From Muribaculum gordoncarteri (lineage in GTDB: Bacteria; Bacteroidota; Bacteroidia; Bacteroidales; Muribaculaceae), in the NCBI RefSeq assembly GCF_004803695.1, contig NZ_CP039393.1, positions 2,728,001 to 2,792,000 of the forward strand: a stretch of DNA of 64,000 bases, in the 5' to 3' direction. The position numbers and the translations under genes are program-made. Every line of letters begins with the position of its first letter. The first letter of the stretch is position 1. Below, one piece after another: positions 8,367 through 24,104 of this stretch. The notes below the pieces were generated by a model. That model was not told the origin of the DNA, did not search any database, and was given only the letters and a program-made list of their open reading frames with translations.

Positions 8367-10595
8367 TCAGTTTCCAAGTTCAAGTTGGTTTTTAACAAGG
8401 TTATAGTAGTGTCCGCGGGCCGCTATCAGCGAGTCGTGGTTGCCCGACTCTACAATTCGCCCTGCATCGAGCACGATTATGTTGTCGGCGTCACGCACCG
8501 TCGACAGTCGATGGGCCACTACCACCACCGTGCGACCACGGTAGAACCGTGACAGGTTGCTCACGATTTCCCGCTCGTTGCGAGCGTCGAGCGAGTTGGT
8601 GGCCTCGTCGAGAAATATGTAGTCGGGGTTGCGGTACACGGCACGGGCAATGAGTATGCGCTGTTTCTGTCCCTGGCTCAGGCCCACCCCGTCGCGTCCT
8701 ATCTTGGTGTTGTATCTCAGCGGCAGCGACATGATGTAGTCATGGATGCATGCCGTTCGGGCGGCCTCCTCGAGCCGGGCCTCGTCGATATCGCCGTCGC
8801 TCACCGCTATGTTGCGCGCTATCGATTCCGAAAATATGACACCCTCCTGCATCACCACTCCGCACCGCCTGCGCCACCATGTCATGCTGTAGCGGTTGAT
8901 GTCGGCACCGGCTATGTCTATGCTCCCGCAATTGACCGGGTAATAGCCGAGCATCAGTTTAATCAGCGTGGTCTTTCCGCTGCCCGACGCCCCAACTATG
9001 GCCGTCACTTGCCCCTGAGGCACCGTAAAGGTTATGTTGTCGAGGGTGTTCTTCAGCGCATGGAGGTCATACCTGAAGTCGATGCCGTTCAACGTTATCG
9101 AACGATTCATGTCGTCGGCATAGCGGGTTAGGAGCTCTCCGTCGTCCTCCTCGTTGCGTCGGCCGTGTATCTCGTTGATGCGTTCAAGCGATATCTTCAC
9201 ATCCTGAAGCGAGTAGATGAAGCTCATGATTTGTGCCACGGGCGAGTTGAGCTGTCCGATGACATATTGCACGGCGAGCATGGCTCCGAGAGTCATGTCA
9301 CCGTTGATTACGGCAGTAGCGGCAAACACCGTTATGACGATGTTCTTGACCTCGTTGATGAATATCGAACCGGCTTCCTGGGTCTGCTGAAGGCTCAGCG
9401 AGCGCATCTGCACCTCAAAGAGGTCGGCCTGCGCATCCTCCCACTCCCAGCGTCGTCGACGCTCACAGTCCTGCAGCTTTATCTCCTGCATGGTGGTGAT
9501 GAACTGGTAGGTGCGGTTCTGGTTCACGGCCTGACACTCAAACAGTTCATAGTCGATCACCTTGCGTCGACGCAGGAATGCCGATATCCACAGGGCATAA
9601 CAGAGGCTGCCGATGACAAACACCATGAAAATCAATTGACTGTAGACAAACAGCACGACTCCAAACACAATGAAGCTCAGCATCGTAAACATTACGCCGA
9701 GAGTCTGCCCGGTAAGAAACGACTGCACGCGCGAGTGGTCGCTCATGCGTTGCAGCAGATCGCCCATAAGCTTTGTGTCGAAGAACGACATAGGCAGCTT
9801 GAGCAGCTTGATGAAAAAGTCGCTCACAAGCGAGATGTTGATGCGCATCGAGATGTGGAGCAGGAGCCAGCGGCGTATAAAGTCGGTGGCGGTGCGTCCG
9901 GTCACTATCATGAGTTCGCCGAGCAGGATGAGCCATATAAGGCCTATGTCGGCATCGTGGATGCCACGGTCGACAATGGCCTGTGTGAGAAACGGCATGG
10001 CAAGCTGCAGCACGCATCCGAGCAGAAGCCCGAGGAATATCTGGGCGAAGTAACCCCGATACTGCTTTATGTAGCCGACGAGAAACCTGAACGAGCGACG
10101 CTCACCCGCCTGTTCCGATTCAGCGTCCGATTGCCCGAAGCGGGGTCCGGGCTGAAGTAGCAGGGCTATGCCCCGGTCCTCGTCGCCGCTTCGTGTGCTT
10201 GCCCATCGCCGCATGAACTCATCACGGCTGTAGGTTAGCAGCCCCTTGCCAGGGTCGGCTATGTGATAACGGCCCCGGCGGTCGATGCGGTAGAGCACCA
10301 CGAAGTGGTTTTGGTTCCAATGCAAGATGGCCGGCAGTGGCGACTGTGACAGCTCACCCGGAGAGAGGCGCACCGAAGCGGTTTCAAATCCGAGTTCCGA
10401 AGCCGCTTGCGACATACCGCGCAGCGACACTCCTTCGGTAGTGGCGTGGCATAGCTCTTCAATCTGCGACAACGTACAGGCCCATCCGTAGTGGCGGCAT
10501 ACCATGGTGAGGCATGCCACGCCACATTGCATCGAGTCGCGCTGTTTTATCCAGGGAAACCGCCTGAATCGCCGTCCGATTGATTGAAAGTCCAT
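8367..10595 (-). CDS. Peptidase-containing ABC exporter (C39, bacteriocin/RiPP type)
   Basis: At 742 residues this is a full PCAT: it cleaves double-glycine leaders and exports the core peptide across the inner membrane. The C39 peptidase (about residues 12-145) has the catalytic Cys in QRDSMQCGVACL, His in WNQNHFVVLY and Asp in HIADPGKG. A six-helix membrane domain follows (about 165-460). The ATPase has Walker A GASGSGKTT (about 535), signature LSQGQKQR (about 638) and Walker B YIFLDEATNSLD (about 658). It is the only exporter beside two GG-leader precursor genes, so it probably serves both cassettes. It lies on the same strand downstream of the left cassette, with a fossil gene end in between. 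Confidence 0.93.
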   Translation of the reverse strand: MDFQSIGRRFRRFPWIKQRDSMQCGVACLTMVCRHYGWACTLSQIEELCHATTEGVSLRGMSQAASELGFETASVRLSPGELSQSPLPAILHWNQNHFVVLYRIDRRGRYHIADPGKGLLTYSRDEFMRRWASTRSGDEDRGIALLLQPGPRFGQSDAESEQAGERRSFRFLVGYIKQYRGYFAQIFLGLLLGCVLQLAMPFLTQAIVDRGIHDADIGLIWLILLGELMIVTGRTATDFIRRWLLLHISMRINISLVSDFFIKLLKLPMSFFDTKLMGDLLQRMSDHSRVQSFLTGQTLGVMFTMLSFIVFGVVLFVYSQLIFMVFVIGSLCYALWISAFLRRRKVIDYELFECQAVNQNRTYQFITTMQEIKLQDCERRRRWEWEDAQADLFEVQMRSLSLQQTQEAGSIFINEVKNIVITVFAATAVINGDMTLGAMLAVQYVIGQLNSPVAQIMSFIYSLQDVKISLERINEIHGRRNEEDDGELLTRYADDMNRSITLNGIDFRYDLHALKNTLDNITFTVPQGQVTAIVGASGSGKTTLIKLMLGYYPVNCGSIDIAGADINRYSMTWWRRRCGVVMQEGVIFSESIARNIAVSDGDIDEARLEEAARTACIHDYIMSLPLRYNTKIGRDGVGLSQGQKQRILIARAVYRNPDYIFLDEATNSLDARNEREIVSNLSRFYRGRTVVVVAHRLSTVRDADNIIVLDAGRIVESGNHDSLIAARGHYYNLVKNQLELGN

Positions 10596-10718: not shown

Positions 10719-12806
10719 TTAATCCTGCTTGGCGGTGTTGGAGTCGATCAGGCCTGAGTCATTGTCGCTGTTGTTGAGCGACTTCTTGGCTTGCTTTCGT
10801 GCCTTTCCCTTTGAGAAGAAGTATGTCAGGTTTATGGCGACAAGATTCTTCATCCCCTTCCAGCATGTCGATTCCGTGGCCGAGAAGCCTATGCCGCGGT
10901 AACGCACGTAGTCGTTCTGAGAGGCATACCGCCACTCCACGCCGGCCGATAACGCCCCCTTTTTCCATGACACCGAAGCGTAGTACTGCCAGCCGCTGCG
11001 GGTGACCATGTCGCCGCTAAATGACTTGTCGGGCGAGTTGACGGATGCGATGAACTGCAAGCGGCGATAGGACATCGCCACCATGCCTCCTATGCGGTGA
11101 TAGTTGTGCCGTATGGTTGAGCTTGGCGTTGAGTATCCGTCGTGGAAGTACTGGTAATAGCTCTGCAGCATCATCCAGTTGCATGGCGAGTAGTTGACTA
11201 TCATCGTGCCGTTGAGCTCGTTGCGTGCATTTATCCTCATCGGCATCATGACGATGTTGTCGCCATCCGACAGCAGGCACGGCACGTTGGGATGATGGGA
11301 GTAGAGGTACTCGATTGACGGAGAGAGCGACAACCACCCGTCGGATGTAGAGTACTGGGGCTTAAATGTCAGCGAGAATGTCCTGTAGGGCTTCAGGGCG
11401 GGATTTCCCGTAGCGATGAAGCGTGAGTCGATGTTGACCCGGTTTTCGGCAAGGTCGCCGGTAGTGGGTCGCGTTCCCTTAAGCTTGGCGATGAGGCGTG
11501 TAGAGAATGTGCGCGTAAACCGATAGAAGAGTGTGAGCGACGAATAGGGTATCACGTTGACGAAGCTCTGGCCCGATACGGGGTGCTGTGCAACCGCATT
11601 GGCACCGAGCGACGCGTAGTAACTCAGTCGCTTATAGCGTCCGGTGTAGGCGATGTAGGCGTAGTGCTGGCGCATGTTGAGATAGGATTCGGGGCCGCCG
11701 TTGTAGGACTGGCGCAGCTCCTTGTAGTTGAAGTAGGCGCCTGTGTTGAGCTCGCCTTTCCACAGCGGCGTGGTGTAGTCGGCCTGTGCTATTATCGAAT
11801 AGTAGCGGTTGTCGATGTTGTTGAGTATATCGTAGTCCATCGACGAGTATTGCTCCGGCATCTTGAGCCACAGCCGGTTGTGGGATTCCGATGAGGAGAA
11901 TGTGTTTACCACATTCACCGCAAGGGAGCGTTTGCCGGCAAAGTCATGCCTGAAGTAGAGGTCGGCGCTCCAGCGGTCGTCGTCGCTGCGCAGGTCATGG
12001 TCCCTGAGTCCTGACAAGTCGCGTGCATTGTCGGTGTAAAGAGTCGACTGCTTGTTCCTTATGTGTCCCGGACGGTTGCCGTAGCGCACATTGGCGTTGA
12101 ACAGGTTGGCTCCCTGGTAGCGCTGATATATGAGCTGTCCGTATTGGTAATGTCCCGAATATTGTCCGTCGCGGCTTCGGTAGGATGACAGTGCCGACCG
12201 GTAGTCGTAGTCGGCATTGGTGCTTCGGTCGACATTGCGGTAGTCGATGAAGTAGTTGGCCGTGAGCATATTGAGCGAGTCGGCATAGGTAAGGCTTGCC
12301 TGATCGGTGCCGTAACCGGTGGTCACTGCGTTAAGGGCGTTTATGTAGGCGCTGTAGAGGCGGTCCTTGCGGCGGCGTATCGTCACGTCGATAACCGGGC
12401 CTGAGGCCATCATCTGGTATTTGGCCGGCGGCTCATGGTAGTAGGTCACCTTCTTTATGTCGTTACCCTGATAGGTGCGCAGTGTGGCTGCGTCGGACGG
12501 CATGCCGTTGATGAATATCGCCACGCTCCTCATGTCGGCCGTTTGCAGTGAAGTAGCGCTTATGGCGGTCGAGAACTGGGGCAGGCTTGAGATTGCATCA
12601 AGTGCGTTGGTGCCGAATTCGCGTTGTTTTTTCGTAAGGATTATCTCGTCGCGGTTGCCTACCGACTGCACAAACTCAGCCTGTACGGTCACCTCCTTCA
12701 GCGATATTGTGGTGTCGTTTTTCTCGCGATTGTCGCTTAGGGCGTAGTCGGGAACCGAGATGAAGAGCAGGCACAGCAGGGCTTTTATAATCATGGCAGT
12801 CTTCAT
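10719..12806 (-). CDS. Outer-membrane beta-barrel protein, cassette A
   Basis: ATG 12806 (MKTAMIIKALLCLLFIS) gives a clear signal peptide and 695 residues; it begins 7 bases after the maturase stop. A TonB-plug-like segment (ISLKEVTVQAEF, then NALDAISSLPQF, VAIFINGMPSDAATLR, about residues 30-150) is followed by a long series of Tyr-rich alternating beta-strands, as in the outer-membrane beta-barrel family related to TonB receptors. Unlike its cassette-B paralogue it lacks an N-terminal carboxypeptidase-regulatory-like domain, and its C-terminus is a Lys/Asn-rich tail (KARKQAKKSLNNSDND). It may pass the peptide through the outer membrane or act as receptor; sequence does not decide. It is GC-richer than the maturase next to it. 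Confidence 0.75.
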   Translation of the reverse strand: MKTAMIIKALLCLLFISVPDYALSDNREKNDTTISLKEVTVQAEFVQSVGNRDEIILTKKQREFGTNALDAISSLPQFSTAISATSLQTADMRSVAIFINGMPSDAATLRTYQGNDIKKVTYYHEPPAKYQMMASGPVIDVTIRRRKDRLYSAYINALNAVTTGYGTDQASLTYADSLNMLTANYFIDYRNVDRSTNADYDYRSALSSYRSRDGQYSGHYQYGQLIYQRYQGANLFNANVRYGNRPGHIRNKQSTLYTDNARDLSGLRDHDLRSDDDRWSADLYFRHDFAGKRSLAVNVVNTFSSSESHNRLWLKMPEQYSSMDYDILNNIDNRYYSIIAQADYTTPLWKGELNTGAYFNYKELRQSYNGGPESYLNMRQHYAYIAYTGRYKRLSYYASLGANAVAQHPVSGQSFVNVIPYSSLTLFYRFTRTFSTRLIAKLKGTRPTTGDLAENRVNIDSRFIATGNPALKPYRTFSLTFKPQYSTSDGWLSLSPSIEYLYSHHPNVPCLLSDGDNIVMMPMRINARNELNGTMIVNYSPCNWMMLQSYYQYFHDGYSTPSSTIRHNYHRIGGMVAMSYRRLQFIASVNSPDKSFSGDMVTRSGWQYYASVSWKKGALSAGVEWRYASQNDYVRYRGIGFSATESTCWKGMKNLVAINLTYFFSKGKARKQAKKSLNNSDNDSGLIDSNTAKQD

Positions 12807-12813
12807 GTGCGCG

Positions 12814-14091
12814 TTATTTGCAATGTTCAATGAAATCTATTAAAGAAGTTTCGATATTTGAATCTTGAGCATCCATTTTGCAATAATTACGTTTTTTTGC
12901 ATGGTCACGAGGACAAATTCCCATACATACGGGTAAATACTTGCAATTTAGACATTTGGGATTCTCATAGCTTTTTTCTTGATACAATTTGTCAAAATTG
13001 TTTTTCCATTCAATTTTTCCGTCTTCCTGTAGCTGTCCGGGAGGATTGCTTTCATATAAATCATTGCAAGCAGTGCATTTTACAACACCGCCATTATAAT
13101 TTATAGCATTGTAATACTCCCTATTAGCATAACAGGGCACGAAATTGTCAACGATTTCCATTCGTGCTGCATTATATCCGTAATCATTGAATTCATCAAG
13201 AATTGAAATAGTTGACAATTGGAAATTTTTGTCAACACTTTCCTGCCATACTTTTTTAGGTGTTATGGTCAATTGTTTTCTGTTTTCCGGCGAGATGTAT
13301 TCATTGATTTGACTTACTATTTTGTTAGTTAATGTTTTATGCGTATAATTTATGCGTAGAACAATATTCATATCCTTTAACGCCGACAATATTTTGTCGA
13401 TGTTGCCCAATGTATGTACAAATGCTGAATCGCAGCCGTTTTGGAATTTTACTTTGTCATGGTTCCCTTTATCCCCGTCCAAAGTTATCTGAAATCCGGA
13501 AAATTTCAACCGTTTTAAATCTTTGATTTTATCAGAGGATAGAAAATATCCGTTTGTGGTTGCTGAATTTAGAAATGGAATTTTAGCTTTATCACATTTT
13601 TCTATTGCGTATTCGCTAATTGGAGCTATCACTTGTTTAAAGTACATGAATGGCTCTCCTCCAAACCATTCTATGTGGAGAGATGTGATATTTCGCTCAT
13701 CAATCATGTAATCAATGTGTTTCTTTACTCGAGTTATAGTTTCCTGCGACATCATTGACGGAATGTGATTCTGTATGCAGTACCAGCATTTGTAATTGCA
13801 ATTCAGTGTCGGTAAAATTACTAAAAAATAATCTTTTGAATGTATTGTTTCAAGATTTCTTTTTCGGATTACCTCAATTTCATCAACATTATCATCAATT
13901 ATAAACTCATTGTCGACTAATTTTTGATAAAAGGATGGTGCCGATTCTTTTAATATTTCAGGGTTGCAAATTAAAGGTTTTATCTTATTACCCAATTCTA
14001 TAGGGAGAGTAAAGAATTTATGTGATACCCCGTTATACCAATAGCTTTTTGAGTCTTTAGATAGGATATAGTTGTAATGACTTGGTTTCAT
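12814..14091 (-). CDS. Radical SAM/SPASM peptide maturase, cassette A
   Basis: A 425-residue enzyme of the radical SAM peptide-modifying type. The SAM cluster motif is CNYKCWYC (CX3CX2C, about residues 98-105), followed by EWFGGEPFMYF and a TTNGYFLS segment. The C-terminal SPASM part carries many Cys: CYANREYYN, VVKCTACND, NPKCLNCKYLPVCMGICP, NYCKMD, enough for two auxiliary clusters. Residues 1-90 form a precursor-recognition-like N-domain. Such enzymes form Cys-to-carbon thioether or related crosslinks; the Cys-rich precursor encoded 53 bases upstream is the obvious substrate (inference). The gene is AT-rich compared with its surroundings. Confidence 0.9.
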   Translation of the reverse strand: MKPSHYNYILSKDSKSYWYNGVSHKFFTLPIELGNKIKPLICNPEILKESAPSFYQKLVDNEFIIDDNVDEIEVIRKRNLETIHSKDYFLVILPTLNCNYKCWYCIQNHIPSMMSQETITRVKKHIDYMIDERNITSLHIEWFGGEPFMYFKQVIAPISEYAIEKCDKAKIPFLNSATTNGYFLSSDKIKDLKRLKFSGFQITLDGDKGNHDKVKFQNGCDSAFVHTLGNIDKILSALKDMNIVLRINYTHKTLTNKIVSQINEYISPENRKQLTITPKKVWQESVDKNFQLSTISILDEFNDYGYNAARMEIVDNFVPCYANREYYNAINYNGGVVKCTACNDLYESNPPGQLQEDGKIEWKNNFDKLYQEKSYENPKCLNCKYLPVCMGICPRDHAKKRNYCKMDAQDSNIETSLIDFIEHCK

Positions 14092-14107
14092 AATTATATG
14101 GTTTTAA

Positions 14108-14134
14108 TAGGAGCAATATTTTATATTGCTCCTA
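14108..14134 (-). terminator. Hairpin between precursor A and maturase A
   Basis: TAGGAGCAATAT pairs perfectly with ATATTGCTCCTA around three bases, followed on the minus strand by TTAAAACC. It lies in the 53-base gap between precursor and maturase, where a partial terminator or RNA-stabilising hairpin would raise precursor over enzyme. Cassette B has an unrelated hairpin in the same place. Confidence 0.7.
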
Positions 14135-14144
14135 AATAGTAAAA

Positions 14145-14372
14145 TTAAGGTTCTTCTACCTTGCCTCCTCCGGCTTCAAATCCGTCCTCGTTTTCATCGA
14201 CAGGACAAGCGCATCCCGCTTTGCGATTGACACATTGCATGTCCAATTCGCAAGCACATCCTACTACTGAATTGGAGCATTGATACTGTAAAGTTATGCC
14301 TGAACGACCTCCTTTAACCTCCAATGCTTCTAACTCTGAGAGTTCTTGAAATGAAAATATACTCTTAAGCAT
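14145..14372 (-). CDS. Double-glycine RiPP precursor peptide A (Cys-rich)
   Basis: A 75-residue peptide. Leader residues 1-22 (MLKSIFSFQELSELEALEV then KGG) end in Gly-Gly with the hydrophobic spacing typical of C39-processed leaders. The 53-residue core holds six Cys in two similar units: QCSNSVVGCAC and QCVNRKAGCAC, i.e. Q-C-x-N-x3-G-C-A-C, separated by ELDM. The tail is acidic and Gly-rich (DENEDGFEAGGGKVEEP). It sits between a secreted DUF3244-like gene and the maturase. I infer Cys-based crosslinks placed by the adjacent radical SAM enzyme and leader removal by the C39 exporter. Confidence 0.85.
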   Translation of the reverse strand: MLKSIFSFQELSELEALEVKGGRSGITLQYQCSNSVVGCACELDMQCVNRKAGCACPVDENEDGFEAGGGKVEEP

Positions 14373-14457
14373 AGTTGTTACTAATTATTAAATGCTTCCT
14401 ATTAACGTAATTCGGCATCCACGACATTTTTTACCCTGTTATGTTCAGTATATAACG

Positions 14458-14464
14458 TGCGCAT
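14458..14464. promoter_or_regulatory. Single GTGCGCA site upstream of precursor A
   Basis: The 7-base core found six times at 14911-15011 occurs once more here, in the gap between the DUF3244-like gene and the precursor. A single 7-mer can occur by chance. Confidence 0.3.
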
Positions 14465-14471
14465 ATTATAT

Positions 14472-14846
14472 CTATTTTACAAAATTTCCTATATAGGTTG
14501 TTTCATCGATGTTAAGGTATAGGGTGTAGCTTATGCCTTTAGTCAATCCTGTTATTGTAAACTCTTGGCATTGATTATTGGTGCTTGACGGATACCCGCT
14601 CCACACCATGTTGTTATTTTTTAAAACAACTACAGTTACATTATCACTGTATTCGCCATATACGCGTAACACATCATTGTCATCGATGGTGACATAAGGA
14701 GAATGTTTTGACGGCATTCTTTTGGGAAGGTTTTTATTATCTGGATGGTCATTTTCAGTGCATACAGGAATAATATCTTCTCCTAATAGCATTATATTCA
14801 TTGAACATATAGCAGCAATAATTAATGATATAAATCTAGTTTTCAT
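14472..14846 (-). CDS. Secreted DUF3244-like protein, cassette A
   Basis: A 124-residue protein with an N-terminal signal peptide (MKTRFISLIIAAICSMNIMLL) and a small beta-sandwich-like C-terminal domain (SPYVTIDDNDVLRVYGEYSDN to the end) of the kind called DUF3244 in Bacteroidetes. The last 76 residues are nearly identical to those of the cassette-B protein, while the N-terminal parts are unrelated. It is the first gene of the peptide operon, 98 bases before the precursor. Its role is unknown; a periplasmic chaperone, immunity or binding protein are all possible. Confidence 0.65.
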   Translation of the reverse strand: MKTRFISLIIAAICSMNIMLLGEDIIPVCTENDHPDNKNLPKRMPSKHSPYVTIDDNDVLRVYGEYSDNVTVVVLKNNNMVWSGYPSSTNNQCQEFTITGLTKGISYTLYLNIDETTYIGNFVK

Positions 14847-14872
14847 TTTATAAAGTGTTAAAAATTATATCA

Positions 14873-14880
14873 CAAATATA
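14873..14880 (-). promoter_or_regulatory. -7 box of the cassette A peptide operon
   Basis: Read on the minus strand this is TATATTTG (TAnnTTTG). It lies 26 bases upstream of the DUF3244-like start, and the operator array begins 31 bases upstream of it, a usual activator position. Confidence 0.65.
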
Positions 14881-14910
14881 AAATGAGGCTTTATTCTATC
14901 CAAGATTTTT

Positions 14911-15011
14911 AGTGCGCAAAAAGTGCGCATTTTCAAAAAATGTTATTCTTTAGTGCGCAAAAAGTGCGCATTTTCAAAAAATGTTATTCTTTAGTGCGCA
15001 AAAAGTGCGCA
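14911..15011. repeat. Operator-like iteron array, cassette A (period 41)
   Basis: AGTGCGCA occurs six times at 14911, 14922, 14952, 14963, 14993 and 15004. The two copies in each pair are 11 bases apart (one helical turn) and pairs repeat every 41 bases (about four turns). The array lies between the TPR-HTH regulator stop and the peptide operon promoter, so all sites face the same side of the helix. I infer a cooperative binding site, most simply for the regulator encoded next to it. Confidence 0.75.
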
Positions 15012-15029
15012 AAAAACGTATTAATACAT

Positions 15030-16799
15030 TTATAATGAGCGGATAAATGAGTCCCAATCTCGGGCTGACGCTTTCTCAATTTTGAATACTTTTGCATATA
15101 GTCTAGATCTAATAGATGTTACGGTTTCTTTTGAGCGATTAACCATTTTGCTGATGTTGGACGGGCTAATGCCTATCTTTATGAGCATTGTCACTCTCCA
15201 TTCCAATGCACTCATGAATCTGTCGGGATGCAGTTTTTTATAAAAATCAGGACAATTGGAAATTATGGATTTTTCAAGAGCTTTCCACTCATTATATGAT
15301 AGATTGAAATTATTATCCGAAATATTTCTTTTTATCTTCCCAACAATCTCGCTTGACATTAATTTATTGTCGGAAATTTGTTTGGAACTTGTCAAATCTT
15401 CCAGTTGTGCCGTGGTTTGATTTAATGTGTTTTCTAATTCGGTAATGTAGTCGGTCAATGAATTTACTTTCTCATTATATGAATGGTTTTCTAAAAGCAG
15501 ATTTGTTATTTTCGCATGCAATTCTTCCGTTACTTTCAATTTTTCATTGAGAATATTCTCAGTTTCGCTCTCATGTAAGAATTTCATATTATTAAGTAAT
15601 TCTATTTGGTGTTGTGATTTCAATTTTATTGATTTCCACCAAAAGAATATAAAGAGCATAATCAATATAGATATAGCTGACAATATTATTATAATCTTGT
15701 TTTTGCGCGCATTATTGACTTTTAAGTCGCTGTTTTCTATTTTATATAGTGAATAGTCATAATTTGCCTTTACACGAGCTACAGCTTCAGCACCCTCTAT
15801 CTTTCTAATTGAATCAACCGCATCGAACGCTTTGTTATTGTATTTTAAAGCATCATGCCATTGCATTTTTTGTATGTGATACAGTGTAATATTTCTATAA
15901 GCATTCCTTTTTGCATATATAGAGCCGTTATCACATAACCATAATAGATATGGCAATGCTTGTTGTGATTTGCCCCGTTGCATATAAATTTTGGATGTTA
16001 TAGCATATAATACACTTTTTAAATTCTCGGTTTTATAATCATACATAAGAGCTTTCTCTATTAGAGAATCGGCTACCTCTTTGTTGCCCAATGAGTTTTC
16101 AAGATATGCATATTGTGAGAGTAGACATCCAGATAATTCCTCTTCATTGATACTTTGTGATAACTCATATGCTTTCTTATAACAGATTAATGCGCTATCT
16201 TCATGATTCATGTTAATGTAAGTGTGAGCTATCTCTTTCAATCCATCAATTATAAACAATGTGTCGTTTAGCGCATAGGATAAATCCAATGATTTTTTAT
16301 TAGCGTTAAGCGCATATTCAAAAAGACCTTGTCTATAATATAAATCACCGATTTGGGTATATATGTACGTTCTTAATCTGTCATTATCGTTTGAAATGAG
16401 GGAGTTGACTGCTTTCTGGTAGTAGTCGAGGGCGCGGGGAGCGTCGCCGAGGTCGCTGTAGACTCGTCCGGCGTAATATAGGGCAAGCGGTGTGAGATCG
16501 GGGTCGGAGTGGCCGGTGAAGTACTCGACCACGGGGGCTATCATCGAGTCGTTGCGGTGCTCGATGTAGGCCTTGTCGCGTGACTTTATAAGCATCAGGT
16601 CGTAACGCATCCGCGTTGCCTTGTCGGCTTGATTGATGGCGGGTGACAGTGAGTCGAGGAGCGCGATTGCGCTGTCGGGGCAGGTGTCGGCGAGCCGTCC
16701 GGCGCGGTCGATGTCGTCGCGCAGACGCGAGTTGTCGGCACACCCGGCGACGACGGCGATGCACACGACGGTGATGAATATGTGTAACAAATGCTTCAT
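15030..16799 (-). CDS. TPR lipoprotein-type membrane regulator with C-terminal HTH, cassette A
   Basis: A 589-residue protein. The signal sequence ends in a lipobox (VVAGC, Cys20). TPR-like helical repeats fill about residues 25-360 (LALYYAGRVYSDLGDAPRALDYY and similar). One membrane segment (about 366-388, IIIILSAISILIMLFIFF) is followed by a coiled coil (about 395-470) and a C-terminal helix-turn-helix-like domain (MLIKIGISPSNISKMVNRS, then SIRSRLYAKVF) ending DWDSFIRSL. This fits a sensor outside the inner membrane joined directly to a DNA-binding domain. The first 126 codons are almost identical to cassette B and GC-rich; the remainder is AT-rich and divergent, so the gene is a chimera. 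Confidence 0.8.
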   Translation of the reverse strand: MKHLLHIFITVVCIAVVAGCADNSRLRDDIDRAGRLADTCPDSAIALLDSLSPAINQADKATRMRYDLMLIKSRDKAYIEHRNDSMIAPVVEYFTGHSDPDLTPLALYYAGRVYSDLGDAPRALDYYQKAVNSLISNDNDRLRTYIYTQIGDLYYRQGLFEYALNANKKSLDLSYALNDTLFIIDGLKEIAHTYINMNHEDSALICYKKAYELSQSINEEELSGCLLSQYAYLENSLGNKEVADSLIEKALMYDYKTENLKSVLYAITSKIYMQRGKSQQALPYLLWLCDNGSIYAKRNAYRNITLYHIQKMQWHDALKYNNKAFDAVDSIRKIEGAEAVARVKANYDYSLYKIENSDLKVNNARKNKIIIILSAISILIMLFIFFWWKSIKLKSQHQIELLNNMKFLHESETENILNEKLKVTEELHAKITNLLLENHSYNEKVNSLTDYITELENTLNQTTAQLEDLTSSKQISDNKLMSSEIVGKIKRNISDNNFNLSYNEWKALEKSIISNCPDFYKKLHPDRFMSALEWRVTMLIKIGISPSNISKMVNRSKETVTSIRSRLYAKVFKIEKASARDWDSFIRSL

Positions 16800-17203
16800 A
16801 GCTTCCGCGAATATACGAATAATCCGCGAAATTCACCCAATAAAAGTGGCGGGCGGAGGGGAGGGATATGCGGCGTGCGTGTGCTCCGCGTGACCTCCGC
16901 TCAATCATCAAATCCCCGCGATAGCGTGAGAGCTGCGTAGCTGCTCAATAAGTTTAGCCTCATGCAAATACGCCCTTGGGTGCGTGCAGCGTGAGGTCAT
17001 GTCGTGCCCCCACCATCCCCGAGGGCTGCGTTAGCTGCCCAATAAAATGTTATCGTTGCCGGGTGGAGCGTTTTATTGGGCAACTACGTAGCCCTTTTCC
17101 TTTTTTGTTATCGCTTTTTACCCGTGCTGCGGACGCCTAACGGCGGCCTTGCGCGGGCCTAACGTTATTAAGCAGCTAACGCAGCTTTGGCGCTAACGCG
17201 GGG
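16421..17203. repeat. Long direct repeat, left copy
   Basis: This segment is nearly identical by eye to 23321-24104, with scattered substitutions and one 1-base indel. It covers the first 126 codons of the regulator and about 400 bases of upstream DNA. Identity stops abruptly at both ends: on the left inside the regulator reading frame (after LDYY), on the right in GC-rich filler. Confidence 0.9.
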
Positions 17204-17434: not shown

Positions 17435-17472
17435 TTAGTAGGTTATGTTGACGCCGGAGTCGATGCCGTAGC
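17417..17472 (-). repeat. 3'-end repeat of outer-membrane gene (intact copy)
   Basis: This covers the last 12 codons, the stop and 18 bases beyond. It is the partner of the fossil at 10610-10665 (52 of 56 bases the same by eye). Confidence 0.75.
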
Positions 17473-19744
17473 TTGAGGTTGAGCGGTTGCCCTTGCGGAG
17501 CCTTTTTCCGAAGTTAAGGCTGTAGCGCACGCCTATGCTTACGAGGTTGGCAAAGTTCTTCAGGTAATAGTCGGAGTACTCGGGGTGTACGCTTGACAGC
17601 ACCCAGTTTCGCTGCCTGATGCCGTGCTTTGAGAATATTTGTGATATCGATGCCGAGAATGTCCATTGGCGATAGCGGTAGCTGACATCCACACTGCTGA
17701 ATCGTGATCTTTCGTTGAGATTGTTGGTGCTCAACTGGTATCCCGGGATGAGGGTGAAGTTGGCGTTTACCGTCCATGTGTCCCAGTAGAAGGATGCCTG
17801 TGCATCGGCATTCCAGGTGCATTTATCATATCGGAATCCCTCGCCTCGGGTGGAGTATTTGCCCCATCCGCCCCACACTGCGAGCGACAGATGGTTGAGA
17901 AGGTTGTTGACGCTCATCGAGAGTGACATGCCCATTCGGCGGTTGTTGTGGCAGTTCTCGGGACGCATTAGAAACTTGCCGGCGATTTCCGACGAGGGGT
18001 CGTCGACATAGCTGTAAACGTTCATTATCGGTCGCTTTACATAATTGTAGAACACTTCGCCCGAAGCGTAGAACTTTCCGTGGCCGTATTGGATCGACAG
18101 TCGGTTGGAGGTGGTTGTCGTCGACTTGAGATCGGGATTACCGGTGCGGTATAGAAGCTCGTTTACGGGTGTGAACACATTGGAATAGCGTGACAGGCCC
18201 GGTGACGACGGCTGCCACTGAAGCTGGTATCCCGCACTGAAGTCGTTGCCGAAATAGCGGTTTAGCGACATAGTAAAGCTGGGCCTGAGCATTGAGCTTG
18301 TGACCCGATTATAGCGAAGTCCGGCAGCAAACGAGTAGCCGATGTCGAGCAGTCGTCCGCCAATTGAGGCGTAGCCGTAGAAGACATGCGAACTTGCATC
18401 GTCGGCAATCGGGTTGCCGTTGTTTATCGTGGTCTTTCGGTCGGAGTTGGTGAATCGGTATTGGATTCCGTATCGGGTGCTTACCGACGAGTAGCGGTGG
18501 GAGTAGAGGGCCTCACCGCCGATGAACCATGCTGTGTTGTTGATTTTGTTGAGGTCGGAGTAGCCCGTGGTGTTGACTATGTCGCGGTAGTAGTCGCCAC
18601 GGCTGAGCGAGGTTGTGACATTCAGCTCCATCACGCCGTTGGCGCTTGTGTTTTCGCGATAGTATAGGTCGAGAGTGGGCGCGAGCGACTTGAAGTCGCG
18701 ACTTGTGCGTTCGGTGTAGGAGGAACTTATCTCCTGCACTTCGGTGTCCTCGTCTTGATTCTGGCTATGCTGGTCAAGCAGCAGCGACGCGATGAATATG
18801 CGCTTGTCGGACGGCTGTCGCGTGTAGTCGATGCGCAGGCTGTTGTAGCGGTCGATTGTTGTCGACGGAAGTCCGTGATAGTACAGGCGGGTGACGTTGC
18901 CGCCTCCTATGTACTCTTCCTCCTTGTGGGAATACTCCTTGTCGGAGTCGCGGAACCCTCCCGAGTAGTTGATTGACACCTCATTGGCTCCGTGTCGGTA
19001 GGATGCCGCCACCTGCTGCGAGGTGCGTTTTGCGGTCAATGCCGGATTCAGGTAGGCCATTACGCTTCCTCCCTTGTCGACAGGCACGGTTATGATGTTG
19101 ACCCAGCATGCCCCGTAGCGCACATCGGGGTAGCTGCAGTACTCTACTCTGGCAATGTTTTCAGGAATCAGAGCCGTGAGGTCCTCGATTCGGCGCTGTA
19201 CGCCGTTGATGAGTATCTTTGCGCTCTGCCCGTTGATTGTTATCGTGTTGGTGAGTGAGTTTACTTTCAGTTCAAGCGACTTGAACGACAATGAGTTCAG
19301 TAGTCCCATCATGCCCGGCGCGCGCTTAATCTCCTCAGCCGATGGAATGAGGATGGTGCGGTCGGTAAGCCGATTTACGGCCTTGGCCGACACGGTCACT
19401 TCGGCCAGCCCGATTGTTGAGGGTGACATGGCCACGCTTCCAAGGTCGATGTCGCTGCCGGCCCCTGAAAGTGAGAGCGACAGGCGGCTATAGGAGGTGG
19501 CGTCCACTGTGATGATGAGCTGCTCAGTGACACTGTCGACATTGACGGTAAATGTTCCTTTGCCGTCGGATGTTCCGCGTGCTATTACGGTTGAGTCAGG
19601 TGATGCGATTGTCACTATGGCTCCCGGCACCGGGTCCTTGAGGGTGTTGTCGACTATGCGTCCGCGCACTGTGAAAGCCTCGGCGGTCAATGCCGAAATG
19701 ATTGCAACTAATGTGATAGATAGAATTTTTATACTGATGCGCAT
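17435..19744 (-). CDS. Outer-membrane beta-barrel protein with N-terminal CarboxypepD-regulatory-like domain, cassette B
   Basis: 769 residues with signal peptide (MRISIKILSITLVAIISALTAEA). An Ig-like carboxypeptidase-regulatory domain (FTVRGRIVDNTLKDPVPGA to about 110) precedes a plug-like segment (LAEVTVSAKAVNRLTD, ILINGVQRRIEDL, about 115-220) and a C-terminal barrel of Tyr/Ser-rich strands, ending YGIDSGVNITY. It belongs to the same broad family as the cassette-A barrel but is clearly divergent and has the extra domain. It starts 70 bases downstream of the cassette-B maturase. A role in passing the mature peptide across the outer membrane, or in its uptake, is inferred from context only. 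Confidence 0.77.
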   Translation of the reverse strand: MRISIKILSITLVAIISALTAEAFTVRGRIVDNTLKDPVPGAIVTIASPDSTVIARGTSDGKGTFTVNVDSVTEQLIITVDATSYSRLSLSLSGAGSDIDLGSVAMSPSTIGLAEVTVSAKAVNRLTDRTILIPSAEEIKRAPGMMGLLNSLSFKSLELKVNSLTNTITINGQSAKILINGVQRRIEDLTALIPENIARVEYCSYPDVRYGACWVNIITVPVDKGGSVMAYLNPALTAKRTSQQVAASYRHGANEVSINYSGGFRDSDKEYSHKEEEYIGGGNVTRLYYHGLPSTTIDRYNSLRIDYTRQPSDKRIFIASLLLDQHSQNQDEDTEVQEISSSYTERTSRDFKSLAPTLDLYYRENTSANGVMELNVTTSLSRGDYYRDIVNTTGYSDLNKINNTAWFIGGEALYSHRYSSVSTRYGIQYRFTNSDRKTTINNGNPIADDASSHVFYGYASIGGRLLDIGYSFAAGLRYNRVTSSMLRPSFTMSLNRYFGNDFSAGYQLQWQPSSPGLSRYSNVFTPVNELLYRTGNPDLKSTTTTSNRLSIQYGHGKFYASGEVFYNYVKRPIMNVYSYVDDPSSEIAGKFLMRPENCHNNRRMGMSLSMSVNNLLNHLSLAVWGGWGKYSTRGEGFRYDKCTWNADAQASFYWDTWTVNANFTLIPGYQLSTNNLNERSRFSSVDVSYRYRQWTFSASISQIFSKHGIRQRNWVLSSVHPEYSDYYLKNFANLVSIGVRYSLNFGKRLRKGNRSTSSYGIDSGVNITY

Positions 19745-19814
19745 TGTTGTTATTGGTTTGTTATCGTTGTAAATTGGTAATTATATTACGAATATAATCA
19801 AATTTTTGAATATA

Positions 19815-21062
19815 TTAACACGATGTCACGTTTAATAATATTCGATTAGTTACAATGCTGTCCTTTTCATCATCATCGAAGTTGTGCATACAATAGTCGG
19901 TTGATCCCATTGATTGCTTTGTACAACCACCATGGCACAATGGAAATATTCTACAATGACGGCAATTGGGATTTTTAAATTTTGAAGCCATTCGTTTTTC
20001 CAATGAGTCGTTTTCCCAGATGATTTCTCCTTCCGATGAAAGATATCCGTCCCTTGGTGTCTTTGCAAAGTCAACCGCTGTACATTTGTAGATATCTCCG
20101 TTGTAATTTATCATACAGCTGTTTCTTATGTCCCCATAACAAAAACTACGGAAATCCATTTTGGCTGAAGGGATACCCTCGTTACTGAATGCGGTGATCA
20201 TGTTATCCATGTAGGCATATATTTCCTTGCGATTGTTATCCTGCCATACAATCTGTAAGTCTACACGAATCAGTTTCTTTTCATCACAAGTCAGTTCATT
20301 GAAATAAGCGGGAATCTGCCCTATTGATGCCATGTTGTCCTTTGAACAGTTCACTCTCAATGTTACGCTCATTCCGTTTTTAACCATTAATTTTATATTA
20401 TTCACTATATGAGTGAATGTGTCATCGCCCTTATGGCGAAAACGTATGCTGTTGTGTATATCTTTGTCGCCGTCAAGAGTTATTTGCGCTCCAGTGAAAT
20501 TCAACATTTTCATTGCCTTTATTCTTTTTTCCGACAGGAGGAAACCGTTGGATGTCATGTTGGCCGAGAACGGAATTTGGGCTTCAGATGATTTGTCATA
20601 GGCATGTTTTAATATTGGCACCATGACTTCGTTATAATATAGCATTGGCTCTCCACCGAAAAATGATATTGTCAAATTTTTGCCCTCATTTATTATTTTG
20701 TCAATCAGCGACTTGACGCGTTCAATCATTTCAGGTGCCATTTTTGATGCAATGTGTGATTCATAGCAGTACCAACAATGAAAATTACAGTTAATCGTAG
20801 GATTTATTATTAGATGAAAACTTGTGTCATTTTTTTCGATTGTCAATGCTCTCTTAATAAACTCATCACGTTCATCTACAATGTCATCAACAATGAATCC
20901 CTCCGTTACAAGTTTACTTAACAACGACTCATTTACATCAAGGATGTTGGTGTCACATATAATTTTATCGGGTATAACTACTGTAGTATCGGTCAATGCA
21001 TTATAGATTACCGTAGAATTTTCAGTAGGGTGCAGATATGTGTTGTATATGCTTTTTTTCAT
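19815..21062 (-). CDS. Radical SAM/SPASM peptide maturase, cassette B
   Basis: 415 residues, paralogous to the cassette-A enzyme. The cluster motif is CNFHCWYC (about residues 91-98), followed by FFGGEPMLYY and TSNGFLLS; the A and B enzymes share TLDGD around the middle. The SPASM part contains SFCYGDIRNSC, YKCTAV, NPNCRHCRIFPLCHGGC and DYCMH, enough Cys for two auxiliary clusters. The N-terminal 85 residues differ from cassette A, as expected if they read different leaders. The gene is AT-rich. The NCQC-repeat precursor is encoded immediately upstream, separated by a strong hairpin. Confidence 0.9.
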   Translation of the reverse strand: MKKSIYNTYLHPTENSTVIYNALTDTTVVIPDKIICDTNILDVNESLLSKLVTEGFIVDDIVDERDEFIKRALTIEKNDTSFHLIINPTINCNFHCWYCYESHIASKMAPEMIERVKSLIDKIINEGKNLTISFFGGEPMLYYNEVMVPILKHAYDKSSEAQIPFSANMTSNGFLLSEKRIKAMKMLNFTGAQITLDGDKDIHNSIRFRHKGDDTFTHIVNNIKLMVKNGMSVTLRVNCSKDNMASIGQIPAYFNELTCDEKKLIRVDLQIVWQDNNRKEIYAYMDNMITAFSNEGIPSAKMDFRSFCYGDIRNSCMINYNGDIYKCTAVDFAKTPRDGYLSSEGEIIWENDSLEKRMASKFKNPNCRHCRIFPLCHGGCTKQSMGSTDYCMHNFDDDEKDSIVTNRILLNVTSC

Positions 21063-21093
21063 TGTAAGGATTGATTTGGGGTGTATTTAATTA

Positions 21094-21132
21094 AGATGTG
21101 TCTGGACATATATTAATTGTCCAGACACATCT
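21094..21132 (-). terminator. Hairpin between precursor B and maturase B
   Basis: AGATGTGTCTGGACA (21094-21108) pairs perfectly over 15 bases with TGTCCAGACACATCT (21118-21132) around a 9-base loop, followed on the minus strand by TTAATTAAATA. It is placed exactly like the cassette-A hairpin and likely lets most transcripts stop or be stabilised after the precursor. Confidence 0.75.
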
Positions 21133-21144
21133 ATTAATTGAGGT

Positions 21145-21402
21145 CTATTCTAAACTGGGATCTGTTGAAATGTAACGACATTGACAATTGTTACCATTAC
21201 ATTGGCAGTTATTGGAACTTTCTGAACCACATTGACAATTATTGCTTCTACATTGGCAATTGTTACCATTGCATTGGCAGTTATCGGTTGTTTCATGTCC
21301 TGTGTGGTCTAAGCCTCCAAACACAAAACATTCTTCTTCTTCAGAGAGCCGATTTTGTACATTCGCGACCAATTCTTTTAATGATAGAAATGTTGTTTGC
21401 AT
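21145..21402 (-). CDS. Double-glycine RiPP precursor peptide B with NCQC repeats
   Basis: 85 residues. The leader (MQTTFLSLKELVANVQNRLS, then EEEECFVFGG, residues 1-30) ends in Gly-Gly. The core contains five NCQC units (Cys 42/44, 49/51, 56/58, 66/68, 73/75), mostly with a seven-residue period (CQCNGNN, CQCRSNN) and one longer spacer, GSESSN. That gives ten core Cys in CXC pairs, plus one Cys in the leader. No family name comes to mind for this core. The order precursor then radical SAM/SPASM enzyme is the same as in cassette A. Regular CXC spacing suits repeated thioether or ring formation by the maturase; simple metal binding is the main alternative. Confidence 0.85.
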   Translation of the reverse strand: MQTTFLSLKELVANVQNRLSEEEECFVFGGLDHTGHETTDNCQCNGNNCQCRSNNCQCGSESSNNCQCNGNNCQCRYISTDPSLE

Positions 21403-21427
21403 ATCATTTGTTATTTAATTAGTAATT

Positions 21428-21465
21428 ATGCGAACTTTGAACCGCGCGTATCTCTTGGTTCGCAT
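21428..21465. promoter_or_regulatory. Inverted repeat upstream of precursor B
   Basis: ATGCGAAC (21428-21435) and GTTCGCAT (21458-21465) form a perfect 8-base inverted repeat with a 22-base loop that itself contains GAACCGCGCG. It lies in the 100-base gap between the DUF3244-like gene and the precursor. It could be an operator or an RNA hairpin. Confidence 0.4.
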
Positions 21466-21502
21466 TGTTATTTTATACTAAGATTATAACCTTATATCTT
21501 TA

Positions 21503-21856
21503 TTATTTAGTGAATTCACCGATGTAGGTTGTTTCATCGATGTTAAGGTATAGGGTGTAGTTTATGCCTTTAGTCAATCCTGTTACTGTAAACTCTTGGC
21601 ATTGATTATTGGAGCTTGACGGGTACCCGCTCCACACCATGCTGTTATTGTTAAAAACAACTACAGTTACATTATCACTGTATTCGCCATATACGCGTAA
21701 CACATCATTGTCATCGATGGTGACATAAGGAGAATAACCTAATGAACGATCAACAATCGTTTGTTGCTCTTTGCTTTGTTCAACGCTTATTGGCTTTTCT
21801 TTTGCAAATAGTGCTAATGAAAATATCATCATTATTGCACAAAGGAAATGTTTCAT
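21503..21856 (-). CDS. Secreted DUF3244-like protein, cassette B
   Basis: ATG 21856 (MKHFLCAIMMIFSLALFAKE) gives a signal peptide and 117 residues. From SPYVTIDDNDVLRVYG to the end it is nearly identical to the cassette-A protein (changes such as LKNNN to FNNNS, ISYT to INYT). Upstream of that point the two are unrelated. The sharply bounded similarity in a region where neighbouring genes differ strongly points to gene conversion or a strict functional constraint. It is the first gene of the cassette-B peptide operon. Confidence 0.65.
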   Translation of the reverse strand: MKHFLCAIMMIFSLALFAKEKPISVEQSKEQQTIVDRSLGYSPYVTIDDNDVLRVYGEYSDNVTVVVFNNNSMVWSGYPSSSNNQCQEFTVTGLTKGINYTLYLNIDETTYIGEFTK

Positions 21857-21880
21857 AATTTTAGGGTTATTGGTTTCTTG

Positions 21881-21888
21881 CAAAGAAA
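21881..21888 (-). promoter_or_regulatory. Possible -7 box of the cassette B peptide operon
   Basis: The minus-strand reading TTTCTTTG differs from TAnnTTTG at one position. It is 24 bases upstream of the start codon and 34 bases from the nearest repeat site, matching the cassette-A geometry. Confidence 0.4.
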
Positions 21889-21922
21889 TGAATGCTCGTT
21901 TATACTTGCAAGTTTTTAATTA

Positions 21923-21979
21923 CGCAAAATTTTACAAAACCATTAATTTAACGAGTGTTAATCTCGCAAAATTTTACAA
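21923..21979. repeat. Operator-like direct repeat, cassette B (period 42)
   Basis: CGCAAAATTTTACAA occurs exactly at 21923-21937 and 21965-21979. The sequence differs from the cassette-A sites, but the 42-base spacing and the position (between regulator stop and DUF3244-like promoter) are the same. This fits a cassette-specific site for the cassette-B regulator. Confidence 0.7.
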
Positions 21980-21995
21980 GCTCTCAATAACTCCT

Positions 21996-23699
21996 TTATA
22001 ATGAACCTATAAAGTCATCCCAATTCTTAAATGCAGAATCCTCTTTTTTAAAGTACCTTTGATATAATCGTGATCGTATCGATGAAATTGAGCTAAAGCT
22101 TTTCATCATTATCGGGGCTATTTCACCTGGAGCAAACCCCACTTTTATAAGCATAGATACTCTAAGATCGCTAGTTTTATGTACTCCGATATAACTCAAT
22201 GTTTCAAAAAATGATGGGTATGCTGATTCTATCTCTTTCATAAGCTCTCCCCAATCCGTTTCCTGAGGTCGAAATCCATTACTTTTGAATTTAAGTAGTA
22301 TTGGGCTTAGGAATATGGAAACCGCAGGTTCGCTATCAATGATTGCATCGTGTTTGTTGCAAAATTGAGAACTGATTTGAACGCTTTTATCGTTGACGGA
22401 TGTATAATTCTGTATCAAATCAAGTTCTTCTTTTTTCTTTGAGAGGTGCTTTTTAACACCAATGTCGCTGTTGTCGATTATACGTTGTATCTTTTGATAT
22501 TCATTGATAGCTTGCAAACGCTTGTTCTTTAGATATATGATGCATGCAGTTGCCGATACAGCCACGATTATGAGTATTAACAGCAATGTCAGGATATAGA
22601 ATTGATTTCTTGCGTTTTGCGCTGACAATTTCTCATTTTCTCGTTCGCGAATAGCGAAGTTGTATTTTGCATTTATTTTAGCAAGTTCCTCATTGTTATA
22701 ACTTTTATTCAATGAATCGTTATATAGTATATACATGTTTATGTATTCTACTGTTTGCGACACATCTTCTTTTGCCATTGCAATGTTGGCCAATAAACCG
22801 CTTGCCGATTTTTTGTTGAGCAATGAACCACTGTCGAGCATCCAATGGATGTGAGGCAGTGCCTTGGCTGTGTCATTTAGTTCGATATAAATATTGGAAG
22901 CTATTGAGTGTACCTGCTGCTCTATGTCGGAAGGATAGCATTCCAAAACCGGTTTGAATATTGAATCGGCCTTCTCAAACATATCCAATTGAATGTAGTA
23001 TGATGCAATTTGCGAACGTACTCGGTTAAGTCCTTTTAGGTCATTTAGCCTCAATTGATTTTCCAAAGCTTTGTTATAGCATATTAGTGCGCTGTCTGGT
23101 TTGCCAAGTTGGCGAAAGCATATCGCAGATTGAAGAAGTATCCTGACAATGCGTGTTGTGTCATGCATTTCTTTAGCACATTTGTGGGCAATGTCAAAAT
23201 AATATTTTGCATTTACGTATATGTCCTGTTGTTGAAAAATTGTTCCAATCTGTCCGGAGATTAGATATCGCATCATATTGTTTTCCGGATTGTCATTGAG
23301 GGAATTAAGTGCGTTATAATAGTAGTCGAGGGCGCGGGGGGCGTCGCCGAGGTCGCTGTAGACTCGTCCGGCGTAGTATAGGGCAAGCGGGGTGAGATCG
23401 GGGTCGGTGTGGTCGGTGAAGTATTCGACCACGGGGGCTATCATTGAGTCGTTGCGGTGCTCGATGTAGGCCTTGTCGCGTGATTTTATTAGCATCAGGT
23501 CGTAACGCATCCGCGTTGCCTTGTCGGCTTGATTGATGGCGGGTGACAGTGAGTCGAGGAGCGCGATTGCGCTGTCGGGACGGGTGTCGGCGAGCCGTCC
23601 GGCGCGGTCGATGTCGTCGCGCAGACGCGAGTTGTCGGCACATCCGGCGACGACGGCGATGCACACGACGGTGATGAATATGTGTAACAAATGCTTCAT
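21996..23699 (-). CDS. TPR lipoprotein-type membrane regulator with C-terminal HTH, cassette B
   Basis: ATG 23699 (MKHLLHIFIT) is chosen by identity with cassette A, giving 567 residues; an upstream in-frame ATG at 23732 is possible. Lipobox Cys20, TPR-like repeats to about 350, membrane segment about 363-388 (ILTLLLILIIVAVSATACIIYL), coiled coil, and a C-terminal HTH-like part (MLIKVGFAPGEIAPIMMKS, SIRSRLYQRYF, ending NWDDFIGSL). The first 126 codons are nearly the same as in cassette A; the rest is AT-rich and only distantly similar, including the HTH, in line with the different operator sequence. Proposed role: senses a signal outside the inner membrane and switches its own peptide operon. 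Confidence 0.8.
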   Translation of the reverse strand: MKHLLHIFITVVCIAVVAGCADNSRLRDDIDRAGRLADTRPDSAIALLDSLSPAINQADKATRMRYDLMLIKSRDKAYIEHRNDSMIAPVVEYFTDHTDPDLTPLALYYAGRVYSDLGDAPRALDYYYNALNSLNDNPENNMMRYLISGQIGTIFQQQDIYVNAKYYFDIAHKCAKEMHDTTRIVRILLQSAICFRQLGKPDSALICYNKALENQLRLNDLKGLNRVRSQIASYYIQLDMFEKADSIFKPVLECYPSDIEQQVHSIASNIYIELNDTAKALPHIHWMLDSGSLLNKKSASGLLANIAMAKEDVSQTVEYINMYILYNDSLNKSYNNEELAKINAKYNFAIRERENEKLSAQNARNQFYILTLLLILIIVAVSATACIIYLKNKRLQAINEYQKIQRIIDNSDIGVKKHLSKKKEELDLIQNYTSVNDKSVQISSQFCNKHDAIIDSEPAVSIFLSPILLKFKSNGFRPQETDWGELMKEIESAYPSFFETLSYIGVHKTSDLRVSMLIKVGFAPGEIAPIMMKSFSSISSIRSRLYQRYFKKEDSAFKNWDDFIGSL

Positions 23700-24104
23700 A
23701 GCTTCCGCGAATATACGAATAATCCGCGACATTCGCCCAATAAATGTGGCGAGGCGGCGGGGAGGGATATGCGGCGTGCGTGTGCTCCGCGTGACCTCCG
23801 CTCAATCATCAAATCCCCGCGATAGCGTGAGAGCTGCGTAGCTGCTCAATAGGGTTAGCCTCATGCAAACGCGCCTTTAGGTGCATGCAGCGTGAGGTCA
23901 TGTCGCGCCCCCACCATCCCCGAGGGCTGCGTTAGCTGCCCAATAAAATGTTATCGTTGCCGGGTGGAGCGTTTTATTGGGCAACTACGTAGCCCTTTTT
24001 CTTTTTTGTTATCGCTTTTTACCCGTGCTGCGGACGCCTAACGGCGGCCTTGCGCGGGCCTAACGTTATTAAGCAGCTAACGCAGCTTTGGCGCTAACGC
24101 GGGG
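23321..24104. repeat. Long direct repeat, right copy
   Basis: Partner of 16421-17203. It includes the regulator 5' part, upstream region and nested palindromic units. Confidence 0.9.

Follow-up and report, generated by a model that had tools for sequence, protein, structure and literature searches.

A GG-leader peptide with a ladder of five NCQC units beside a CteB-like radical SAM/SPASM maturase in Muribaculum gordoncarteri

The window analysed here is a 64,000-nucleotide stretch of Muribaculum gordoncarteri DNA (contig NZ_CP039393.1), and it carries a RiPP locus whose genes all lie on the minus strand, arranged as two successive modules with one shared PCAT. In each module the order is a TPR/HTH regulator, a small secreted DUF3244-like protein, a GG precursor, a radical SAM/SPASM maturase, and an outer-membrane barrel. 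Module 2 (17435-23732) contains the precursor with the cysteine ladder, and module 1 spans 10719-16799. The features relevant to the analysis are the following.

21996-23732 (-), regulator with TPR and C-terminal HTH-like parts, BT3442-like
21503-21883 (-), small secreted protein of DUF3244-like type, encoded upstream of the precursor gene; the match (E 8e-4) does not reach the Pfam cut-off
21145-21402 (-), RiPP precursor peptide of 85 aa, almost certainly of the radical-SAM type; leader 1-30 ending in VFGG, core 31-85 with five [N/D]NCQC units
21178-21282 (-), ladder of five NCQC units in the translation, residues 41-75
21094-21132 (-), strong RNA hairpin with a 15-bp stem between precursor stop and maturase start (-25.4 kcal/mol, z -6.9)
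19815-21062 (-), radical SAM/SPASM maturase P0002, 415 aa; RRE-like domain at 1-77, Radical_SAM E 3e-16
17435-19744 (-), outer-membrane beta-barrel of module 2, TonB-dependent-receptor-like, at the same position in the related loci L058 and L302
14145-14372 (-), second GG precursor, in module 1; core with two imperfect CxNx4CxC repeats
12814-14091 (-), second radical SAM/SPASM maturase, P0003, in module 1; 34% identical to P0002 and in a different deep clade
10719-12830 (-), outer-membrane beta-barrel serving module 1
8367-10595 (-), PCAT with C39 peptidase and ABC exporter (Peptidase_C39 E 3e-34), by sequence the likely leader protease and exporter

The precursors of the two modules are unrelated, the repeats of the module 1 core being CSNSVVGCAC and CVNRKAGCAC, and the maturases P0002 and P0003 share only the 34% identity listed above. 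The modules are nevertheless linked by two direct repeats of 96% identity, one of 808 bp (16397-17203 versus 23297-24104) that covers the promoter and the N-terminus of the regulator, and one of 217 bp (14488-14704 versus 21519-21735) that covers the C-terminus of the DUF3244-like gene. Such repeats on either side of unrelated precursor and maturase cassettes look as though cassettes had been exchanged, or gene conversion had occurred, beneath a common regulator front, and since unrelated precursors and unlike maturases are here combined with near-identical regulatory DNA, the pairing of leader and maturase can be tested within one genome. Small secreted DUF3244-like proteins recur beside these precursors (14472-14846 and 21503-21883 in the window; L196 1491-1868, L199 2041-2424, and L123 3677-4135 elsewhere), and a role as immunity or carrier proteins is possible; the listed start of 21503-21883 is TTG, with a later ATG as a possible alternative. 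The hairpin behind the precursor stop is probably an expression attenuator or a processing element. In most relatives examined the same intergenic position carries hairpins of unrelated sequence, and this conserved location would fit an element that sets the ratio of precursor to enzyme.

The 21145-21402(-) peptide starts as MQTTFLSLKELVANVQNRLSEEEECFVFGG and continues as LDHTGHETTDNCQCNGNNCQCRSNNCQCGSESSNNCQCNGNNCQCRYISTDPSLE. A first-pass annotation had described five NCQC units with ten paired core cysteines at a mostly seven-residue period, a GG leader, and an adjacent radical SAM/SPASM enzyme, and the translation agreed with this in coordinates and counts. The NCQC units start at residues 41, 48, 55, 65, and 72 (periods 7, 7, 10, and 7), the ten core cysteines are residues 42, 44, 49, 51, 56, 58, 66, 68, 73, and 75, the double glycine is Gly29-Gly30, and the P0002 gene lies 82 bp downstream of the precursor. 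The leader contains an eleventh cysteine, Cys25, which had been missed in that annotation. Also the regularity of the CxC ladder, pointed out before, stood up to scrutiny: when the 55-residue core was shuffled 200,000 times, no shuffle contained five NCxC motifs (mean 0.33, maximum 4), and pairwise comparison of the five [N/D]NCQC units gave 20 synonymous against 4 non-synonymous codon differences. Since the units differ mostly synonymously, the ladder is a protein repeat kept by selection, and not merely a young DNA repeat.

The precursor is matched by no model of NCBIfam or Pfam. The Pfam metallothionein models give nothing at E up to 1, and the CefA model (NF038108), which describes a Cys at every fifth residue and has a threshold of 30 bits, does not match at all. 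The context is that of a radical-SAM RiPP: a short precursor of leader and core adjoins a modifying enzyme with a leader-binding (RRE-like) domain, as defines a RiPP, and the GG at 29-30 is combined with a C39-ABC exporter in the cluster, as in other GG-leader, PCAT-exported peptides.

The maturase P0002 contains the radical-SAM motif CX3CX2C (CNFHCWYC, residues 92-99) and, with seven cysteines at 308, 327, 367, 370, 376, 380, and 391, the complete SPASM pattern CX9-15GX4C-gap-CX2CX5CX3C-gap-C, which places it among the SPASM enzymes. Both sets of cysteines are invariant or nearly so over 72 sequences. An AlphaFold2 model based on a 72-sequence alignment (mean pLDDT 92.6) begins with a beta-beta-beta-alpha-alpha-alpha arrangement (strands 7-13, 16-21, and 26-30, helices to residue 77). 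Three strands followed by three helices is the arrangement of an RRE, and the alignment with CteB starts at model residue 4, so that the N-terminal domain qualifies as RRE-like. CteB (5why) is also the best full-length solved fold for the model (Z 24.8, residues 4-413); TigE, also matched over the full length, comes next, and then ChlB and anSME, whose matches leave out the N-terminal part. In a sequence search with P0002, too, CteB was the first match. CteB is a maturase that forms cysteine thioethers. The nearest NCBIfam models, TIGR04463, CefB, Clo7bot, geopeptide, and PapB, all matched far under their cut-offs: the best, TIGR04463 (rSAM_vs_C_rich), gave 148.8 bits (E 2e-43) against a cut-off of 525, CefB (NF038107) 141 bits against 600, and the PapB equivalog NF047865 106.7 bits against 340. 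TIGR04463 is also the top NCBIfam match of most P0002 relatives, and its 525-bit cut-off was reached by no enzyme of the window and by no relative tested. Since P0002 stays under every NCBIfam equivalog cut-off, it belongs to no curated family.

A search with the maturase profile (threshold E 1e-60) found homologues in 73 of the 397 genomes of the window's family. A GG-type Cys-rich ORF lies no more than 400 nt from the maturase in 109 of 142 distinct maturases collected, these ORFs being automatic picks of which a few may be spurious, and a PCAT homologue, often directly downstream, is present in the fetched stretches of 69 out of 80 maturase loci from named Bacteroidota genomes (Bacteroides, Phocaeicola, Porphyromonas, Flavobacterium, Chryseobacterium, Mucilaginibacter, and others). 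The first-pass annotation had suggested a search for the ladder pattern near radical SAM genes. A pattern of three NCxC units matched 16 of the 397 family genomes, and in eight of them (G000, G080, G162, G173, G233, G281, G288, and G320) the ORF adjoins such a maturase, thus ladders do recur beside homologous maturases in other species. The closest relative, G281 (L302), has a maturase 57% and a PCAT 69% identical to those of the window, the same gene order (TPR, secreted protein, ladder precursor, radical SAM, outer-membrane protein, PCAT), and a ladder of five units with an exact period of seven, NNCAC-DNCPC-NNCPC-DNCPC-DNCPC. In L058, a Porphyromonadaceae MAG with a 51% identical maturase, the ladder has four units and the order is precursor, maturase, barrel, PCAT. 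Two- to four-unit ladders adjoin maturases in Bacteroidaceae too. In the window's family, every intact small GG ladder found adjoins a CteB-like radical SAM/SPASM maturase.

The NCxC motif as such turned out not to be a general marker, since those order-wide pattern matches outside the family that were retrieved proved to be repetitive DNA or unrelated proteins, and none had a radical SAM gene in its vicinity. In the viral contigs searched, the radical SAM proteins were all remote (no more than 38% identity over short stretches) and there was no phage version of the system, and for other members of the precursor family, the metallothionein, lantibiotic, and late-nodulin models gave only weak matches at chance level. 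In G288 (L045 1381-1791(+)), the ladder precursor continues directly into part of a maturase-like sequence; this broken, fused copy has decayed, and it looks as if a deletion had joined the precursor and maturase genes. Other types of cysteine ladder lie beside homologous maturases as well, such as GCGCGC blocks (L016 2776-3018(-), L017, and L184) and, in L178 1979-2227(-), a CTGNx ladder of period five with a weak CefA match.

Comparison of these ladders redefined the repeated unit. In the window's maturase clade (L003, which is the window, L034, L058, L033, and L044), all 21 of 21 CxC units read [N/D]-N-C-x-C, in which x can be Q, P, K, N, R, or another residue, and the unit-to-unit distance is between 7 and 10. 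Apart from Cys, the unit has a single residue that never varies, Asn, with N or D at position -2. In 12 other ladder loci, Asn directly precedes the CxC in 33 of 34 units. From the NCQC motif proposed initially, the CxC pairs and the preceding Asn therefore hold, but the Gln is not conserved among relatives and [N/D]-N-C-x-C is the better description. Likewise, the statement that no RiPP class is defined by NCQC repeats remains correct insofar as no NCBIfam or Pfam model matches, but the [N/D]NCxC unit marks one subtype and no stand-alone class: the ladder peptide belongs to a large, Bacteroidota-wide, and mostly unstudied family of Asn/Cys-rich GG precursors that accompany CteB-like maturases. 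A tree that holds all precursors with two or more strict units in a single maturase clade was rejected (a cost of 192 log units, p-AU 2.3e-8), and the starred branches of the maturase tree require four or more changes. The occurrence of ladder precursors in several maturase lineages implies that the unit was either kept from a deep ancestor and repeatedly lost, or reached more than once.

The association of Asn with Cys extends beyond the ladders. Asn makes up 13.4% of the cores (n = 113) compared to 4.5% of the leaders and 4.9% of the long ORFs in the window, and its number tracks that of Cys (partial r 0.25, p 0.007). Compared with shuffles, Asn was enriched at -1/-3 from Cys in ladders (z about 7.7) and at +2 (z 7.3) and -5 (z 6.4) in non-ladder cores; these z-scores serve as guides only, since the shuffles ignore relatedness and the ORF picks are automatic. 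The companion residue of Cys is Asn, and not His, Asp, or Glu. The CxC spacing is unusually common among successive cysteine spacings (104 cases), the wider family being mostly non-CxC, and the Cys count is odd in 49 of the 113 cores.

Among known systems, the locus most resembles those of the ranthipeptides, radical non-alpha thioether peptides in which the Cys sulfur is attached to a non-alpha carbon. Like CteB/SCIFF and PapB-freyrasin, it combines a maturase consisting of RRE, radical SAM domain, and seven-Cys SPASM with a Cys-rich core that repeats a donor/acceptor motif, the unit being CX3D for PapB and [N/D]NCxC here. Unlike the CteB and PapB systems, it has a GG leader, a PCAT, and a Gram-negative outer-membrane barrel. 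With CefA/CefB ('Cys-every-fifth') it shares a regular Cys ladder and a homologous maturase, and Asn occurs in some related repeats (CTGNS in L178), but its ladder has CxC pairs at a period of 7-10 whereas CefA has one Cys per five residues. As in TIGR04463, the partner of the maturase is a Cys-rich peptide. GG/PCAT RiPP clusters of Bacteroidales have been mined by Fernandez-Cantos et al. 2023 (PMC10352776), and the accessible part of that survey describes, as in the window, radical SAM genes with GG precursors, several of them with a PCAT and an outer-membrane protein without a membrane-fusion protein, and some with TPR-domain genes. The radical SAM cluster characterised there, BGC8, differs in that it has two Cys and a YcaO, and an Asn-Cys ladder is not described in that part of the text. 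Our literature search, which covered subscription journals thinly, returned nothing on CefA/CefB or on a defined Cys-Asn ranthipeptide, and radical-SAM RiPPs of Muribaculaceae in one survey only.

Taken together, we consider it reasonably likely that the peptide and P0002 form a ranthipeptide-like system that makes rings within each unit and exports its product through the PCAT. By homology, the leader would be bound by the N-terminal RRE-like domain of P0002 and the core would be modified by the same enzyme, whose radical-SAM cluster and SPASM auxiliary clusters may attach the sulfur of Cys to a carbon in another residue close by in the same [N/D]-N-C-x-C unit. Every unit could then become an autonomous small thioether ring, one or possibly two per unit and five to ten overall, and the product would be a rigid ribbon of rings with short flexible spacers in between. 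Judging from their homologues, the C39 domain of the PCAT would cut after the GG and export the 55-residue core, which the outer-membrane barrel may carry across, or anchor at, the outer membrane. That the chemistry in the ladder consists of thioethers is, in our estimate, probable, and this is proposed because CteB, the nearest solved structure for the predicted fold, makes Cys thioethers. A modification within units is favoured since the unit is invariant while its period varies from 7 to 10, and since many precursors of the family have an odd number of Cys. Freyrasin-like CX3N links between units were also considered, the second Cys of a unit and the next Asn often being in a CX3N arrangement. 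They were rejected in view of the varying periods and of the last unit of L044, which has no following Asn and for the same reason argues for a linkage inside the unit.

The most likely acceptor in such a ring would be the invariant Asn, to which we give somewhat less than an even chance on the basis of the unit alignments; Asn beside Cys may instead serve turns or the geometry of a metal site. With an invariant Asn and N/D at -2, two donors could match two acceptors in every unit. PapB does not take Asn instead of Asp as acceptor (review PMC8172795), so P0002 would have a new specificity that PapB lacks. In the sactipeptide ruminococcin C, which opens with a CxC pair, sulfurs are linked to Asn and to Ala/Glu acceptors (PMC8172795), hence Asn is already known as a radical-SAM thioether (sactionine) acceptor. 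However, ruminococcin C has S-C(alpha) nested hairpins over 8-13 residues, for which the spacers of 3-6 residues in the window leave no room, so that the spacing seen in the sequence argues against sactipeptide nested hairpins within the ladder. The RumMC model is a remote match.

The first-pass annotation had set a ribbon of repeated rings against a metallothionein-like metal binder, and the latter is the main rival explanation: the CxC thiols are free, or are freed after another modification, and bind Zn, Cu, or Cd as in a metallothionein or metallophore, with the radical enzyme acting elsewhere or linking some of the cysteines. CxC ladders are classic metal ligands, and the CxC spacing is, as mentioned, overrepresented in the precursor family. 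Moreover, two non-RiPP proteins of the window's family have such ladders: an ArsR-like protein ends in repeated DNCQCG (L037 1099-1680(+)) and an FKBP-type protein has an NCGC tail (L039 1495-2130(-)), both tails possibly metal-binding and both genes without a radical SAM gene beside them, which means that a ladder alone is no proof of crosslinking. We nevertheless regard free-thiol metal binding as unlikely for the peptide, as all intact small GG ladders in the family adjoin a CteB-like maturase, the wider precursor family has mostly other spacings and often odd numbers of Cys, and it is Asn that accompanies Cys rather than His, Asp, or Glu.

Other known products of radical SAM/SPASM enzymes include C-C bonds, epimers, and cyclopropanes. 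P0002 could accordingly introduce a C-C cyclophane, an epimer, or a beta-functionalised Asn without crosslinking Cys, after which the CxC pairs would close as disulfides outside the cell. The invariance of Asn in the units and its covariation with Cys number would suit such chemistry, and SPASM enzymes of several chemistries are homologous to P0002 at a similar distance, but the full-length fold best matches the thioether-forming CteB, the ladders contain no aromatic residues for cyclophanes, and with odd Cys counts so frequent it is unlikely that all cysteines are generally paired as disulfides. This renders chemistry without Cys crosslinks quite unlikely. It is hardly credible that the neighbouring enzyme does not act on the peptide, or that the ORF arose by chance or is in decay: small repetitive ORFs can be accidents, and the pattern matches elsewhere in the order were mostly DNA repeats far from radical SAM genes, but this ladder is far above shuffles and synonymously biased, independent homologues keep its gene order, and the intergenic hairpin is present as in relatives.

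The locus type itself, a GG/PCAT-exported RiPP with a CteB-like radical SAM enzyme, is already known; the novelty lies in the [N/D]NCxC unit, in its occurrence with several lineages of maturases, and in the large family of Asn/Cys precursors, which no curated model covers. To our knowledge, radical-SAM RiPPs are abundant in gut Bacteroidales and hardly any has a known structure. Ten Cys in identical units provide an unusually clean substrate, in which one mass gives the number of crosslinks and unit-deletion variants would tell whether each unit is modified independently. The calculated monoisotopic mass is 6015.233 for the unmodified core, 6005.155 with five crosslinks, and 5995.077 with ten. 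If Asn is the acceptor, fixed Asn-Cys offsets would allow ring patterns to be predicted for many uncharacterised Bacteroidota precursors. A bolder, rather doubtful extension is a new radical-SAM RiPP class of Bacteroidota that joins Cys to Asn. Its ladder unit, with two donors and two acceptors, would form a fused bicycle (ten thioethers, -20 Da), so that the product would be a chain of identical small rings that grows or shrinks in evolution as units are gained or lost, and the Asn-Cys spacings CxN, NxxC, and Nx4C would encode different ring types of one enzyme superfamily.

Aside from the genes discussed above, GT2-family glycosyltransferases adjoin the ladder precursor and maturase in several related clusters (L303 7068-8018 and 15306-16829, L306 9834-12239, and homologous ORFs in L304 and L305), and the peptides of such clusters may be glycosylated as well. 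In the window, an ORF at 3214-5130(+) near the RiPP locus resembles, as judged by eye, a phage terminase large subunit and is possibly a prophage remnant.
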